This document shows, piece after piece, positions 1,908 to 42,603 of a DNA stretch of 64,000 nucleotides (position 1 is its first letter; each line of letters opens with the position of its first letter). Where the stretch lies: contig JBDUUL010000001.1 in the NCBI GenBank assembly GCA_039938515.1, positions 233,760 to 297,759 on the forward strand, written 5' to 3'. The stretch comes from Nitrososphaera sp. (GTDB lineage Archaea; Thermoproteota; Nitrososphaeria; Nitrososphaerales; Nitrososphaeraceae). The position numbers were made by a program, and so were the translations under genes. Under the pieces are notes generated by a model, which was given only the letters and a program-made list of their open reading frames with translations, had not been told where the DNA came from and made no database searches.

Positions 1908-3204
1908 CGTCCAGGTCTCGAGATCAAGCCTGAAAGGAAGCGTCAGGTGCCCTTCCAGCAAAAGCTACAGCCACAGGGCGATCGCCGTTGCCTCGCTTTG
2001 CCCCGGGAAATCGACCATACAAAATGCATTGCTTGCGCGAGACACGCTCGCAACGCTTGCGGGCTGCCGTTCATTTGGCGCTAGCATAACCCATAGTGAT
2101 ACGACTGTTACCGTGCAAGGTCATGAACGCCTCGACCTTCCTGAGAATGTGATTAATGCCGAAAATTCGGGGACCACGATTCGAATCCTTGCCGCAATGT
2201 CAGGATTGGCCTTGCCCGCTGGATATACCGTTCTCACAGGCGATGAAAGTCTGAGAAAAAGGCCGATGCTTCCGATTCTTCAGGCCCTAAATGAGCTTGG
2301 AGTGGAAGCATTTTCAACAAAGATGAATGGGCGACCGCCGTTGGTAATCAAGGGAGGCGGAATAAGAGGCGGCCATGCCGTAATTGATGGGAGCATATCC
2401 AGCCAGTTCATATCCGGGCTTTTAATCGCAGGCATCTACGCGGAACGGGAAATCGCTCTGGACATTGCGGGGAATTTAGTGTCGAGGCCCTATGTCCTGG
2501 CCACGATCGCCACTATGAAACGGTTCGGAGTAAGTATTGATGCAAGTGACGACCTGCTCCACTATAAGATAAAAAGCGGCAGATACAAGCCGACCTCGTT
2601 TGAAGTCCCGAGCGACTTTTCAACCGCAGCACTCCTTTTGGCCGCAGGCGCATTGGTTAGCGAAAGCCTCGTCATAGAGGGGCTTAATTTTGAACTGCCG
2701 CAAGGCGATGCGGCCATAATTGACATTCTTCAGAAGATGGGTTCGAATCTGAGAGTTGACAGGGCCAAAGGCAGAGTGTCTATTGAAAAGTCTGAGAAAC
2801 TCGAAGGAGGGGAGTTTGACCTCGGCGATACCCCCGACCTTTTACCGGTGGTTTCAGTTCTCGCTCTAAAGTCAAGGTCTCCAGTGGCGATAAGAGGAGT
2901 TGCCCATGCTCGCGTGAAGGAGACTGACCGGGTCGCAAACATAGCGTTGGAACTTGCCAAACTCGGAGCGGATGTTTCGGAATACCCCGACGGGCTCTCC
3001 ATCAAGGCACCCCCGACGCTCAGAAATGCCTCTCTAGAAGCTTATAACGATCACCGACTATTCATGGCGTTTACGATTGCTTCCATGCTCACCGACAAGT
3101 CGGTCGTGGCCGGCGCCGAATCCGTAGACGTGTCGTATCCAAACTTTATTTCCGACATGCATGAGCTTGGAGCAAATATCTCGCCCATGCCCGACCGAGA
3201 ATAG
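1900..3204 (+). CDS. aroA: 3-phosphoshikimate 1-carboxyvinyltransferase (EPSP synthase)
   Basis: Transfers the enolpyruvyl group of PEP to shikimate 3-phosphate. Motifs in order: N-terminal SSKSYSHRAI (about 19-28) with the Lys-Ser pair that binds substrate, NSGTT (about 89-93), ISSQFISGLL (about 165-174), DLLP (near 314) and the C-terminal RVKETDRVANIALEL stretch with the catalytic Lys-Glu. 434 residues is standard length. ATG at 1900 overlaps the aroK stop by 8 nt. A 59-nt gap follows before aroC. Confidence 0.95.
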   Translation: MVSVQVSRSSLKGSVRCPSSKSYSHRAIAVASLCPGKSTIQNALLARDTLATLAGCRSFGASITHSDTTVTVQGHERLDLPENVINAENSGTTIRILAAMSGLALPAGYTVLTGDESLRKRPMLPILQALNELGVEAFSTKMNGRPPLVIKGGGIRGGHAVIDGSISSQFISGLLIAGIYAEREIALDIAGNLVSRPYVLATIATMKRFGVSIDASDDLLHYKIKSGRYKPTSFEVPSDFSTAALLLAAGALVSESLVIEGLNFELPQGDAAIIDILQKMGSNLRVDRAKGRVSIEKSEKLEGGEFDLGDTPDLLPVVSVLALKSRSPVAIRGVAHARVKETDRVANIALELAKLGADVSEYPDGLSIKAPPTLRNASLEAYNDHRLFMAFTIASMLTDKSVVAGAESVDVSYPNFISDMHELGANISPMPDRE

Positions 3205-3263
3205 CTTTTTGGGTAACACCCAAAGAGCCAAATACAGTTCAGGAGGACGGACAGAAGGAAGTC

Positions 3264-4361
3264 ATGGTAACAGGGAGCATCATCGGCGAACGCTTTGTGA
3301 CGCTCAGCTTTGGGGAGTCCCATGGCCGATGTGTCGGTGCAGTGGTTGATGGATGTCCCGCCGGCCTTCAGCTCTCCGCGAATGACATTCAAACTAACCT
3401 TGACCTGCGAAAGCCCGGGCAATCGGTTATTACAACCCAAAGAAAAGAAGAGGACCGAGTCGAAATACTTTCAGGGGTTTTTAAAGACCGAACCACTGGC
3501 GCTCCGATCTGCATGGTTATCTGGAACAAAGACGCCGATTCCCGTTCATACGAGCTCATTCGCGACACTCCTAGACCTGGACATGCCGACTATCCTGCTG
3601 AGGTCAAGTTTGGAGGTTTTGCCGATTATCGCGGTTCAGGCAGGTTCTCCGGAAGGCTTACTGCGACAATTGTGATGGGTGGTTCTATCGCAGCAAAACT
3701 TCTCAAAGACTCGCTTGGCATTCAGACTTTCGCATACACGACACAGATCGGAAAAATAAGAGCTGACAATATCACTGAAAACGGAATAGCGTCAAGATAC
3801 TCAAACGAGGTAAGGTGTGCCGATCCTGAGGCGGCCGAGAAGATGAGGTCTGCTATACTTGAAGCGCGGCAAGAAGGGGATTCCCTTGGCGGCGTGATCG
3901 AATGCACAAGTACTGGTCTCCCGGTGGGTCTGGGTGAGCCTATCTTTTCCTCGCTTGAGGCCGACTTGAGCAAGGCATTGTTTGGCATTCCCGCTGTAAA
4001 AGCCGTGGAATTTGGCACTGGATTTGATGGTTCGGCCCGCAAGGGTTCCGAAAACAATGACACTTACTATATGCAAAAAGGCAGGGTTCTGACCCAAACT
4101 AACCACTCAGGAGGCATCCTGGGAGGGCTGTCAAACGGGATGCCATTGGTTCTCAGGGTCGGTTTCAAGCCTGCAGCCTCAATCGCCAAGAGCCAGCGCA
4201 CGCTCAACACTAAGACAATGGAGCAGACGGAACTTAGAGTGCCCGGCCGTCACGATCCGTGCGTGGTTCCTCGTGCGCCTCCGGTGGTCGAGGCCGCAGT
4301 CTCCATGGTTCTCGCCGACCACGCACTCAGAGGAGGTTTCATCCCTCCAGTCCTAAAGTGA
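3264..4361 (+). CDS. aroC: Chorismate synthase
   Basis: Converts EPSP to chorismate with reduced FMN, the last common step to Phe, Tyr and Trp. Signature blocks are LSFGESHGRCVGAVVDGCPAG near residues 13-33 (the FMN-binding His is in GESHG), RPGHADYP at about 104-111 and the C-terminal RHDPCVVPRA block near residues 330-340. 365 residues is typical. ATG at 3264 is preceded by a purine-rich AGGAGG at 3241-3246 and GAAGGAAG closer in, one of the few Shine-Dalgarno-like stretches in the window. The end is followed after 29 nt by the start chosen for the mutase-aminotransferase fusion. Confidence 0.95.
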   Translation: MVTGSIIGERFVTLSFGESHGRCVGAVVDGCPAGLQLSANDIQTNLDLRKPGQSVITTQRKEEDRVEILSGVFKDRTTGAPICMVIWNKDADSRSYELIRDTPRPGHADYPAEVKFGGFADYRGSGRFSGRLTATIVMGGSIAAKLLKDSLGIQTFAYTTQIGKIRADNITENGIASRYSNEVRCADPEAAEKMRSAILEARQEGDSLGGVIECTSTGLPVGLGEPIFSSLEADLSKALFGIPAVKAVEFGTGFDGSARKGSENNDTYYMQKGRVLTQTNHSGGILGGLSNGMPLVLRVGFKPAASIAKSQRTLNTKTMEQTELRVPGRHDPCVVPRAPPVVEAAVSMVLADHALRGGFIPPVLK

Positions 4362-39136: not shown

Positions 39137-39955
39137 ATGTTTTATCAGGACAGACAACAGCTAATTGCGCAGGTTCGTCCTTTAGTGTATGAAATGTTTC
39201 CGATTCTCGTGCTTATAGGGTTCGCGGCAGGCACGCTAGGATCGATGATTGGAGTCGGGGGCGGCATAATTATCGTACCGTTCCTGACTTTTTTTGGGAT
39301 GCAGCCTGCACAGATTGCCAGTACGAGTCTGTTTGCAGTAACTTCCACGAGTGTGTCTTCGAGCATCGAGTACTCCAGGCAAAAGAGAATAGACTACAAA
39401 CTTGCGATCTCGATGGCGGCGGCCGCTCTACCCGGCACCGTGCTTGGCGCCGTGCTATCGCACAGCATCTCTCTTGAGTCATTCAGGTTGTACTTTGCCA
39501 TCTTGCTCGCCATAGCAGGGCTTTACGTTCTCTACAAGACGCGCATCCTGAGAGAGCCCCAGACCAAGAGTCCGACCTTTTCAACCAAGTTGGCGGTGGT
39601 TGCCCTGAGCTTCGTGGCCGGAGTGATTTCAAGCCTGTTTGGTGTTGGAGGCGGTATTATCTTCGTGCCGGCGATGCTTTTGCTTCTGGGCATTGCCATG
39701 CAGCGCGCAGCGCCGACTTCGCAGATGATTCTGCTGATAACCTCCATAGGCGGGCTTGTGGCACATATTGCACTAGGGCATCCGGATTACGTGTCCGGCA
39801 TTTTGCTTGCCGCCGGCGCGGTCATTGGAGGCCAGGTTGGTGCTCGGTTATCAAAGAGAGTGCGAGATTACTATTTGCAGGCCGCCCTGGGAATTGTGCT
39901 GATTGGCGTATCTGCGAAACTTATCTACGACTGGATGGTTCAGAGCAGGTTATAA
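39137..39955 (+). CDS. TauE/SafE-family membrane permease
   Basis: 272 residues with about eight membrane segments in two similar halves, each starting with a glycine-rich turn (TLGSMIGVGGGIIIVPFL near 35-52 and SSLFGVGGGIIFVPAMLLL near 170-188). This internal repeat is the hallmark of the family, which exports or imports organic sulfonates, sulfite or related anions. Gene context (homoserine dehydrogenase on one side, the tandem SDR on the other) gives no substrate. ATG 39137; an ATG at about 39191 would remove 18 residues before the first membrane segment. Confidence 0.85.
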   Translation: MFYQDRQQLIAQVRPLVYEMFPILVLIGFAAGTLGSMIGVGGGIIIVPFLTFFGMQPAQIASTSLFAVTSTSVSSSIEYSRQKRIDYKLAISMAAAALPGTVLGAVLSHSISLESFRLYFAILLAIAGLYVLYKTRILREPQTKSPTFSTKLAVVALSFVAGVISSLFGVGGGIIFVPAMLLLLGIAMQRAAPTSQMILLITSIGGLVAHIALGHPDYVSGILLAAGAVIGGQVGARLSKRVRDYYLQAALGIVLIGVSAKLIYDWMVQSRL

Positions 39956-40024: not shown

Positions 40025-41839
40025 CTATTGACGGCCCTCGTCGATGTAGTATATCGCCTCGTTTCCGCCACCTGATATTCCCGAGGCCAGAGTCAGCACT
40101 GACTCGCTGAGGTTCTTCGGGTCGGGTTGACTGCCTTCGGCTGTGCCTGCGAGAACTAAATACAGTCGTATTTGCGATCCCAATACATCGCCAAGTTCCT
40201 GGTTTACAGTCGCCGTGTAAGGACGCAAAGCTGCTCGGAAAACGTCCGCTCTGGCGCGCACTTCGCCAGAGATTTTCTTGCCAACTGGAGAATCGGGACC
40301 CACGATTACGAGGCGGCCATGTGCACCTTTGTATTTTGAAGGCTCCTGCACAGCCCCTTCTGGAGCCATAGCGTTGACCGCTTCCTTTACAAGAAGGCCC
40401 GGCACGTGGATGTAGTTGGAAACGAGTGCGTCCCATTCTGCTCTAGAAAGAGTGCCCATTTGCTTTCCATAATCATAGTCACCTGTAAAGTGAATTAGTG
40501 CATTGACTTGACCGAATTTAGATTTGGCCGTGTGCAAAATCCGCCTGACAGAATCTTCTTCAGCCAAATTCAGCGCATGACTGTGAAAGTCTTTATACTT
40601 GTCGCTGTCCTTTGGATTGCCGTACAGGATAATCACCTGCTTTGCACCGAGCGAGTTAGCCATTTTTGCAACCTCTTTGACCCTCTCGATGTCTTTGGAG
40701 GCTGAGGAGGTGGTTGTGAGAATTATGACCTTGCCCGAAACCCGGGGGTCTCCTTCTCTTATCACGGAGGTTCCCACAATGGGCTTAACGGGGTAGAAGA
40801 CCCTGTCGTTTGGTATGACCCTGCCGTTTATCAGCCTGCCAATCTTTTCCCCGCAAAGATTGACAACCATCTCGGCCACGTCATCTTGTGACAGGAACTC
40901 CCCGTCTACAATCATCTTGCTCGTATTGGACTGGATCTTTTCGGCGATTTCCTGAATCTTGCTCAGTGCGCTTGAGACAAGGTCTACTGCCTTTTGCATT
41001 TCCTCGTCTGCAGTGCGCCCTCGCGCTTTTTGGATGCCTTCTGCCACTTTCAACACGCCCGCCTTGACCACCTGTTCGTCCTCCCCCAGTAATGGCAGAG
41101 CATCCGCAGTCACCTTTTCAATTTCAGCCGCGCTCAAGCCGGGAAAGCCCCCTATGCGCAGAAATTCTGCCGCCGCTTTTGGATAGACCGTCTTGTATAT
41201 CCTGTCCGAATGAACCGGCCCCGGGTTAGTCGCAATGGAGCGAATTTCTCTAGAGGCCATTTCCCATGCAAGTGCCTCCGCAAGCCTGTTCTTGGCACCT
41301 TGTGACGCGGTATAAGGCGTTCTAAACCTGTAGGGTCTTTGCTCGTACCTGTTCTCCTCAGAAAAGAAAGTTGAAATGGTCAGAATGGTTGACCCGGGCT
41401 GCATCACGCGAAGGGCACAGGCAGAGGTCCAAAAAGTGCCTGTTAGATGGATTGTCACGCAATCCCGAAATTCCTGGACCGATGCATTCGTAAAGGCTTT
41501 CACGGGACCGGAAACGCCTGCGTTGTTCACAACTATGTCCACCTTTCCAAATTGTTCTTTTAGCTGCTCAAACATTGCGGAGATTCCAGACTCGTCGGAA
41601 ACGTCCACACCCGGAAACGCTGTTACGGAGGCAGACGAACCAACCGACGAAATGATGTCTTTGAGAATCTTTGAAGTCTGATCCAATGGTTCCTTTCGCC
41701 TGCCCATGATAACGATATTAGCACCTCCCTGAGCAAATCTGCGCGCTATAGCCTGACCAATTCCGGTTCCGCTACCCGTGATAACCACAACCTTACCTGC
41801 AAAATCAAGGGGCCGACTGAGAGATTGATTCTGCGTCAC
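40025..41839 (-). CDS. Tandem short-chain dehydrogenase similar to the N-terminal half of Chloroflexus malonyl-CoA reductase
   Basis: 604 residues, two SDR-like domains. Domain 1 (about 12-330): TGSGTGIG (21-28) for the dinucleotide, NNAG (105-108), catalytic Ser156 in ISTFFSEENRYEQRPY, Tyr176 in TPYTASQGAK (the usual Lys of YxxxK is Gln180) and NPGPVHSDRI (205-214). Domain 2 (about 365-604) is a degenerate Rossmann domain without clear active-site motifs. Domain order, STFFS/STIFS, and PGP-x2-SDRI resemble the malonate-semialdehyde-reducing half of the Chloroflexus enzyme as I recall its sequence. A role in malonyl-CoA/malonate semialdehyde reduction of the 3-hydroxypropionate cycle is possible; a degenerate or different SDR is the alternative. 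Confidence 0.7.
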   Translation of the reverse strand: MTQNQSLSRPLDFAGKVVVITGSGTGIGQAIARRFAQGGANIVIMGRRKEPLDQTSKILKDIISSVGSSASVTAFPGVDVSDESGISAMFEQLKEQFGKVDIVVNNAGVSGPVKAFTNASVQEFRDCVTIHLTGTFWTSACALRVMQPGSTILTISTFFSEENRYEQRPYRFRTPYTASQGAKNRLAEALAWEMASREIRSIATNPGPVHSDRIYKTVYPKAAAEFLRIGGFPGLSAAEIEKVTADALPLLGEDEQVVKAGVLKVAEGIQKARGRTADEEMQKAVDLVSSALSKIQEIAEKIQSNTSKMIVDGEFLSQDDVAEMVVNLCGEKIGRLINGRVIPNDRVFYPVKPIVGTSVIREGDPRVSGKVIILTTTSSASKDIERVKEVAKMANSLGAKQVIILYGNPKDSDKYKDFHSHALNLAEEDSVRRILHTAKSKFGQVNALIHFTGDYDYGKQMGTLSRAEWDALVSNYIHVPGLLVKEAVNAMAPEGAVQEPSKYKGAHGRLVIVGPDSPVGKKISGEVRARADVFRAALRPYTATVNQELGDVLGSQIRLYLVLAGTAEGSQPDPKNLSESVLTLASGISGGGNEAIYYIDEGRQ

Positions 41840-41892
41840 GCTCTTGAGAGCCCGATGAAGGTCTATTAAATTTAGCGAGGTTACACTTGTCG

Positions 41893-42294
41893 TTACGGGG
41901 CTTTCGAAATCTGACCGGTTACCATCCTGACATGCATGGCGATCCGGTCTGCGATCTCTGCCATAGTATGGCTAAAGTGCGTGTCGTATTCGCTGTGCCA
42001 CTTGCCATAAATTCTAACAAGGGATCCGACGGGGTCCACGCGGATTTCACCTTCGAATAATAAAACTTCCTTCAACATTGCACTCAGTTGAGCATCGTTC
42101 TGGAGGGTGTCGGCAAAACTACTCGAGCCAGTCCAACGCACGTCGATTACCTGCTTGCTACCGAATCTACCTTTGGTAATCGGCTCACATTTGGCGAGAA
42201 GCCGCTCGTTATCATCGGAATTGCACTCGACGATAAAATGGAGCTGATATGAGTCGAGCGCCCCATATGGCAGCGGAGAAGGATCGTTAGACAC
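41893..42294 (-). CDS. Hypothetical protein, 133 aa
   Basis: Not recognised. Soluble, mixed alpha/beta, with a strand-rich start (YQLHFIVECNSDDNERLLAKCEPI) and a C-terminal amphipathic helix (HFSHTMAEIADRIAMHVRMVTG). Two cysteines without a pair motif. It lies between the tandem SDR and another small gene, all on the minus strand; the 6-nt gap to the upstream 100-residue gene suggests they form one transcript. ATG 42294. Confidence 0.55.
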   Translation of the reverse strand: MSNDPSPLPYGALDSYQLHFIVECNSDDNERLLAKCEPITKGRFGSKQVIDVRWTGSSSFADTLQNDAQLSAMLKEVLLFEGEIRVDPVGSLVRIYGKWHSEYDTHFSHTMAEIADRIAMHVRMVTGQISKAP

Positions 42295-42300
42295 GATCGT

Positions 42301-42603
42301 CTAGCTCCTCTGGATTACTTGAACATAACTGAAGTTCCTGCCGCTTACCCTCACTAGTCCTCTGTTTGTAACTACCCTTGGCCCAAATCCGAACATCTGG
42401 CTAGAAGCCTGTAATGATTCAATCTTTGTGGACCCGACGGGAAGTGCCTGCGCCTCGTACCCTTCGCGTTGCATTTCTTCGGCAATCTGTTCATTTAATG
42501 TCCTTAGTTTTATTGTCACTGGCTCAATTTCGCCGTGATCTTCCTCGTGAACTAACTCGCTAGAATGGGATTGCTTTTCTAAAGGCTGATCGCGCGGGCT
42601 CAC
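42301..42603 (-). CDS. Hypothetical protein, 100 aa
   Basis: Not recognised. A polar, acidic N-terminal tail (about 1-27) precedes a compact region (VTIKLRTLNEQIAEEMQREGYEAQALPVG, about 29-57, then IESLQASSQMFGFGPRVV). The C-terminus NRGLVRVSGRNFSYVQVIQR is strand-like. The second half could be a small DNA/RNA-binding or regulatory domain, but there is no motif to rely on. Sits 33 nt downstream of purE on the same strand, so it may share the purKE transcript. Confidence 0.5.
   Translation of the reverse strand: MSPRDQPLEKQSHSSELVHEEDHGEIEPVTIKLRTLNEQIAEEMQREGYEAQALPVGSTKIESLQASSQMFGFGPRVVTNRGLVRVSGRNFSYVQVIQRS

Follow-up and report, generated by a model that had tools for sequence, protein, structure and literature searches.

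Ammonia-oxidising archaea (AOA) have a real, conserved, lineage-specific putative enzyme that resembles bacterial malonyl-CoA reductase (MCR). The protein is a tandem short-chain dehydrogenase (SDR), in which a catalytic SDR domain is followed by a helical insert of ~100 residues and a degenerate SDR domain. It is likened to MCR in its working and is not classed as MCR, because two defining features of that enzyme are missing: the catalytic lysine and the fusion of four SDR domains in one chain of ~1220 aa, where the archaeal protein is a single unit of 604 aa. Some role of the tandem SDR in the 3-hydroxypropionate/4-hydroxybutyrate (HP/HB) cycle is quite probable. The chance that it works in this cycle as an MCR-type enzyme, most likely as the NADPH-dependent malonyl-CoA reductase, is about even; we infer substrate, reaction and every catalytic role from the sequence, its invariance, the fold match and the distribution. 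One conserved gene is thereby named as the candidate for a missing step, open to direct expression and assay. If the candidate holds, it would contradict the view that the known malonyl-CoA reductases are without homologs in AOA, and would add an SDR with glutamine at the position of the catalytic lysine.

The thaumarchaeal HP/HB cycle is said in the title of Konneke et al. 2014 to be the most energy-efficient aerobic pathway of CO2 fixation. It drives much dark primary production (PMC8287830). In N. maritimus, malonyl-CoA reductase was listed in 2018 among four unidentified enzymes of the cycle, its activity having been shown in extracts, and succinyl-CoA reductase was likewise unidentified (PMC6038301); by 2020 the malonyl-CoA reductase gene of AOA was described as one that cannot be found by homology (PMC6964070). 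Both papers bear out the premise of the initial annotation of this gene, that the thaumarchaeal enzyme has no agreed gene, and no later identification was found in the openly readable literature to 2026. The nearest prior hint concerns Nitrosocaldus, which is without the iron alcohol dehydrogenase (Fe-ADH) reductase and in which SDRs with ~30% identity to Caur_2614 were put forward as possible malonate-semialdehyde reductases (PMC5797428). According to the same paper, which cites Otte 2015, the Fe-ADH was characterised as malonate-semialdehyde reductase in N. maritimus.

The gene and its surroundings

The window, the whole stretch of 64,000 nucleotides analysed here, comes from Nitrososphaera sp., and the reading frame, strand and GTG start of the tandem SDR gene (Table 1) are those first annotated. 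Orthologs of 46–70% identity, from four archaeal families of the order, keep this frame, which rules out a chance open reading frame or a pseudogene. The start codon lies ~25 bases below the motif TTTAATA, a spacing that would be compatible with a leaderless promoter of the gene's own.

Table 1. Features of the tandem SDR gene in window coordinates
Feature	Position	Strand	Basis and remarks
Tandem SDR protein, MCR-like, candidate malonyl-CoA reductase	40025..41839	(-)	604 aa, GTG start; ORF read, orthologs, distribution, AlphaFold, Foldseek
TATA-like TTTAATA	41864..41870	(-)	Upstream of start codon, read directly; putative promoter
Catalytic SDR domain, residues 14-214	41198..41800	(-)	Pfam adh_short 1.7e-40; tree groups it with MCR SDR1/SDR3
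NADP(H)-binding TGSGTGIG, residues 21-28	41756..41779	(-)	Invariant or nearly so in orthologs
Thr157, counterpart of MCR Thr165 (N half) / Ser731 (C half)	41369..41371	(-)	Invariant in 53; alignment; MCR roles from PMC10470521
YRFRTPYTASQ, residues 170-180: YxxRxxY (malonate-binding in MCR), Gln at catalytic Lys position	41300..41332	(-)	Y170, R173, Y176, Q180 invariant in 53
HSDRIYKTVYPKAAAEFLR, residues 210-228	41156..41212	(-)	Almost invariant; Arg213 aligned with MCR Arg215/Arg785
Helical insert, residues 215-316, where MCR has its extra domain	40892..41197	(-)	AF2 helices 237-250, 255-273, 278-311
Degenerate second SDR domain, residues 362-604	40028..40756	(-)	AF2 Rossmann fold; profile at full strength in AOA families only

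In the window the gene has purine genes and the gene of a TauE/SafE permease as neighbours, and no HP/HB gene was recognised beside the tandem SDR at the loci examined. Such neighbours would suit an AOA-specific oxidoreductase that derives from the same SDR stock and acts outside the cycle, for example in lipid, cofactor or nitrogen metabolism; AOA have many lineage-specific genes, and the sequence of the first domain is close to generic SDRs. An invariant malonate-type pocket and an MCR fold over the whole chain, as described below, would then be coincidence, and this alternative appears fairly improbable.

Three further observations concern the locus. A TauE/SafE-type permease gene adjoins the tandem SDR gene, or is one gene away from it, in three AOA families (39137-39955 (+) in the window; 2624-3376 in locus L047, 3143-4090 in L050 and 2112-3686 in L051). 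Between purE and the SDR gene, on the same strand, are two small reading frames without a Pfam match, 41893-42294 and 42301-42603 (-). In family f9, a reading frame of ~150 aa lies directly against the 3' end of the SDR gene or overlaps it (L047 3564-4010, L048 3530-3982, L049 3559-4017, and also L055, L056, L060, L062 and L063), and its L047 copy matched no Pfam or NCBIfam family.

Fold, domain order and kinship with MCR

Among PDB structures, those closest to the tandem SDR are MCR chains. In a Foldseek search with the AlphaFold model of the window protein, the top 25 PDB matches are all MCR, include both halves and span the chain from end to end, with E-values of 2.7e-26 to 1.8e-18 and TMq 0.65-0.72, whereas the next ordinary SDR follows at 9e-14 and covers one domain only. 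The model of an ortholog of 49% identity matches the MCR halves over the whole chain at 1e-24; against the same model 2et6, the peroxisomal MFE-2 tandem SDR, gives a clearly poorer 2.6e-19 with TM 0.56 and rmsd 18.8. MFE-2 also has two SDR domains per chain, but both are catalytic, whereas the AF2 models and Foldseek give the archaeal protein the order seen in MCR, a catalytic SDR domain and then a degenerate one. The rmsd of the models to MCR in Foldseek is 6-10 Å, so the relative placement of the domains or the inserts differ.

Sequence scores are a poorer guide. The phmmer E-value of MCR among PDB sequences, 8e-43, sums two MCR domains and was rejected as proof of kinship, because per domain other SDRs score equally: MCR reaches 65-85 bits and glucose dehydrogenase 87 bits. 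In whole genomes, one generic SDR scored 102 bits, more than the ~90 bits of MCR domains. The tandem SDR is not distinguished from ordinary SDRs by its sequence score, and the case for MCR is therefore built on the architecture, the fold, the tree and the residues of the pocket. The question of whether ordinary SDRs or MCR match best thus has a split answer, ordinary SDRs holding their own in sequence scores alone and the other four kinds of evidence favouring MCR. In FastTree phylogenies of the first domain, the archaeal family forms a clade with MCR SDR1 and SDR3 to which the generic SDRs do not belong (SH 0.96, bootstrap 0.83); the same clade is recovered with the motif columns removed (SH 0.87, bootstrap 0.65). 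Fold, tree and the YxxRxxY motif together support the kinship with Chloroflexus-type MCR that was initially proposed.

The two SDR domains differ in how they can be recognised. The adh_short match is the sole Pfam SDR domain found by sequence in the protein, and its NCBIfam matches, the best 25 of which were considered, all fell short of the family cut-off. The second domain (about 362-604) is without glycine-rich and YxxxK motifs and is recognisable only in structure prediction, where AlphaFold gives the confident Rossmann fold (pLDDT 86.5, pTM 0.88) that the initial annotation had claimed. It has no detected homology to MCR SDR4 in particular. A profile of this domain, tried as a means of finding MCR by sequence, matched mainly generic SDRs, and weakly; even the SDR2 and SDR4 domains of MCR hardly match one another, which makes such a test powerless. 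The helical insert occupies the same place as the CoA-binding (Arg799) extra domain (ED) of MCR, and sequence homology between the two is undetectable.

The proposal that the protein resembles specifically the malonate-semialdehyde (N-terminal) half of MCR did not hold up: it is like both halves, and the N half is not clearly favoured. With the C-terminal half of Roseiflexus and Chloroflexus MCR (SDR3-ED-SDR4; PDB 8hi5, 8a30, 8j29, 6k8s) the tandem SDR has in common a catalytic SDR with YxxRxxY and PGPxxxxR, an insert after PGP, a degenerate second SDR and the fold of the whole chain; it differs in standing alone, in having Gln for the catalytic Lys and Thr for Ser, and in an insert that is shorter (~100 versus ~150 aa) and not homologous by sequence. 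With the N-terminal half (SDR1-SDR2; PDB 8hi6, 8aew, 6k8v) it has in common the tandem order, the catalytic Thr, SxRI, YxxRxxY and a similar length, but Gln again replaces Lys, the insert is larger and a fused C half is absent. Thr157, Asn184, Ser211 and Ile214 match SDR1, not SDR3; traits of the C-half type are Glu162, a Pro preceding YxxRxxY, the distance between the strand and this motif, and the large insert that follows PGP. Bootstraps are split (AOA+SDR1 0.52, AOA+SDR3 0.30, SDR1+SDR3 0.12), the target-normalised TM is higher for the N half (0.74-0.77), and attempts to assign the protein to one half by hhalign or tree gave contradictory results. With such mixed residue states and split bootstraps, the sequence is silent on whether the substrate is a thioester or an aldehyde.

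The four SDR1-like residues, the slight preference of the bootstraps for SDR1 and the higher TM of the N half are what would be expected of a malonate-semialdehyde reductase, which turns the aldehyde into 3-hydroxypropionate as the N-terminal half of MCR does, the malonyl-CoA reductase then lying elsewhere. The Caur_2614-like SDRs (~30%) proposed as stand-ins in Nitrosocaldus, which is without Fe-ADH, point the same way (PMC5797428). Against this, the insert is much longer than that of the N half, and a plain aldehyde reductase should need no such cap. The enzyme would also be redundant in families f1 and f9, which have the Fe-ADH as well, and we regard this role as unlikely.

The pocket and a proposed mechanism

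All motifs quoted in the initial annotation are present: besides TGSGTGIG these are NNAG (105-108), ISTFFS (155-160), TPYTAS (174-179) and NPGPVHSDRI (205-214). Thr157, Tyr170, Arg173, Tyr176, Gln180 and Lys183 are invariant in 53 of 53 aligned sequences. The motif YxxRxxY, invariant in these orthologs, occurs in 0 of 52 generic SDRs, a small comparison set from few genomes and scattered loci. In the same set Arg213, invariant in the orthologs, is found in 2%, and five residues common to the tandem SDR, MCR SDR1 and MCR SDR3 (F159, Y170, R173, P208 and R213) each occur in ≤8%. In Roseiflexus MCR, the malonate moiety is bound by YxxRxxY, and Arg746, Arg785 and Arg799 are important for the binding of substrate or CoA; the MCR counterparts of Y170, R173 and R213 bind the substrate or the cofactor, and mutating several of them sharply lowers or abolishes activity (PMC10470521). 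Arg47, after beta-2, is common to the tandem SDR and both MCR halves and would fit NADPH as the cofactor.

The Ser/Thr-Tyr-Lys triad of MCR is incomplete in the archaeal protein: Thr157 and Tyr176 are present, and Gln180, four residues after the catalytic Tyr176, stands at the Lys position of YxxxK, as had been stated at the outset. A catalytically dead or structural homolog that has lost its lysine would account for Gln180, and mutation of Lys753 or Lys182 in Roseiflexus MCR abolished or sharply lowered activity (PMC10470521). The doubt that the initial annotation drew from this exchange is real. The invariance of Gln180, however, marks the change as old and fixed rather than as decay, and speaks for an altered, not a dead, site. 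The other cofactor and substrate residues are likewise invariant across families down to ~46% identity, a pocket that decay would not preserve, and a dead protein is very improbable indeed. A reading of the site as that of a divergent (FabI-like) SDR, with Tyr176 and Lys183 seven residues apart, was set aside because the distances to the PGP motif place Gln180, not Lys183, at the Lys position; Lys183 is possibly a helper residue.

For the favoured role as malonyl-CoA reductase, the reaction would be malonyl-CoA + NADPH -> malonate semialdehyde + CoA + NADP+. NADPH would lie in the first Rossmann domain, bound by TGSGTGIG, Arg47, Asp79 and NNAG, with its nicotinamide ribose held by Gln180 instead of Lys. 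Tyr170 and Arg173 of YxxRxxY may grip the malonyl carboxylate, Arg213 may be placed near the phosphates of the cofactor or of CoA, and Thr157 and Tyr176 would polarise the thioester carbonyl for hydride attack. The proton donor could be the Tyr170-Arg173 pair, a role proposed for it in MCR, or Lys183, which is also invariant. The insert and the second SDR domain are envisaged as forming a cap over the pocket and binding CoA.

Distribution and probable place in the cycle

The tandem SDR was found in 219 of 300 genomes of the class and AmoA in 205 of 300, both confined to families f1, f2, f3 and f9. Comparison of the two lists gives about 201 of the 300 genomes with both genes, and four AmoA-bearing drafts (G210, G223, G271, G301) without the tandem SDR. 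A profile of the second domain, run on 397 Thermoproteota genomes, reached full strength only in the four AmoA families. Among the archaea searched, the protein is confined to ammonia-oxidising lineages and present in nearly all of them. The two genome sets support its restriction to lineages that run the thaumarchaeal cycle: it occupies the same families as AmoA and none outside, a few drafts having one gene or the other. Because ammonia oxidation and carbon fixation characterise the same lineages, co-occurrence does not tell which of the two the protein goes with.

The Fe-ADH malonic semialdehyde reductase (Nmar_1110 type) belongs to the adjacent step of the cycle and to an unrelated family. 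This ~320-aa type was found in f1 and f9 and was not found in f2 (G037:C1, G053:C22) or f3 (G038, G054), both of which have the tandem SDR. Family f2 is probably Nitrosocaldaceae, as it has two 4-hydroxybutyryl-CoA dehydratase-type genes like those described for Nitrosocaldus, and the failure to find the Fe-ADH in it agrees with PMC5797428 for Nitrosocaldus. With the tandem SDR in all four families and the Fe-ADH found in two, the former tracks a need universal to AOA and not the Fe-ADH. A need common to all AOA, whichever enzyme follows in the cycle, speaks more for malonyl-CoA reductase than for malonate-semialdehyde reductase, as an argument from distribution and not a proof.

Two aldehyde dehydrogenases (ALDHs) of this genome are close to succinic-semialdehyde and glutamate-semialdehyde dehydrogenases. 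In Sulfolobales, one enzyme reduces both malonyl-CoA and succinyl-CoA; this Asd-like reductase would fill the same pathway step and is unrelated in fold, the tandem SDR being an SDR by Pfam and fold and not of the semialdehyde-dehydrogenase fold. No extra Asd paralog of the Sulfolobales type was found in this genome, which has one Asd and one ArgC/LysY only, and a moonlighting Asd is possible as malonyl-CoA reductase. The tandem SDR might also reduce succinyl-CoA, or both thioesters, and so fill two gaps as in Metallosphaera: the succinyl-CoA reductase is equally missing (PMC6038301), Sulfolobales set the precedent of a dual enzyme, and the pocket is of a carboxylate-binding kind. The pocket motif is nevertheless that of MCR, which acts on a C3 acid, nothing indicates a C4 acid, and this genome has an ALDH-family candidate for the C4 steps, all of which leaves a succinyl-CoA activity distinctly improbable.

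Malonyl-CoA reduction remains the preferred reading, and a wider form of it is conceivable, if somewhat unlikely: that AOA reduce malonyl-CoA with one MCR unit, unfused and with an SDR site based on Gln, and that this unit may be similar to the form before MCR's internal duplication; that the HP/HB cycle of archaea is linked at this step, by shared descent, to the 3-hydroxypropionate bicycle of bacteria; and that in families without Fe-ADH the enzyme might do both reductions.

Two observations were made outside the AOA. Non-AOA relatives, in families f8 and f10 (L175, L176), have 4-hydroxybutyryl-CoA dehydratase-family (HpaB_N) genes and are without the tandem SDR. MCR genes are present on contigs that binning assigned to Planctomycetaceae, Gracilibacteria and Gemmatimonadaceae (L070, L083, L085), through either transfer or binning error.
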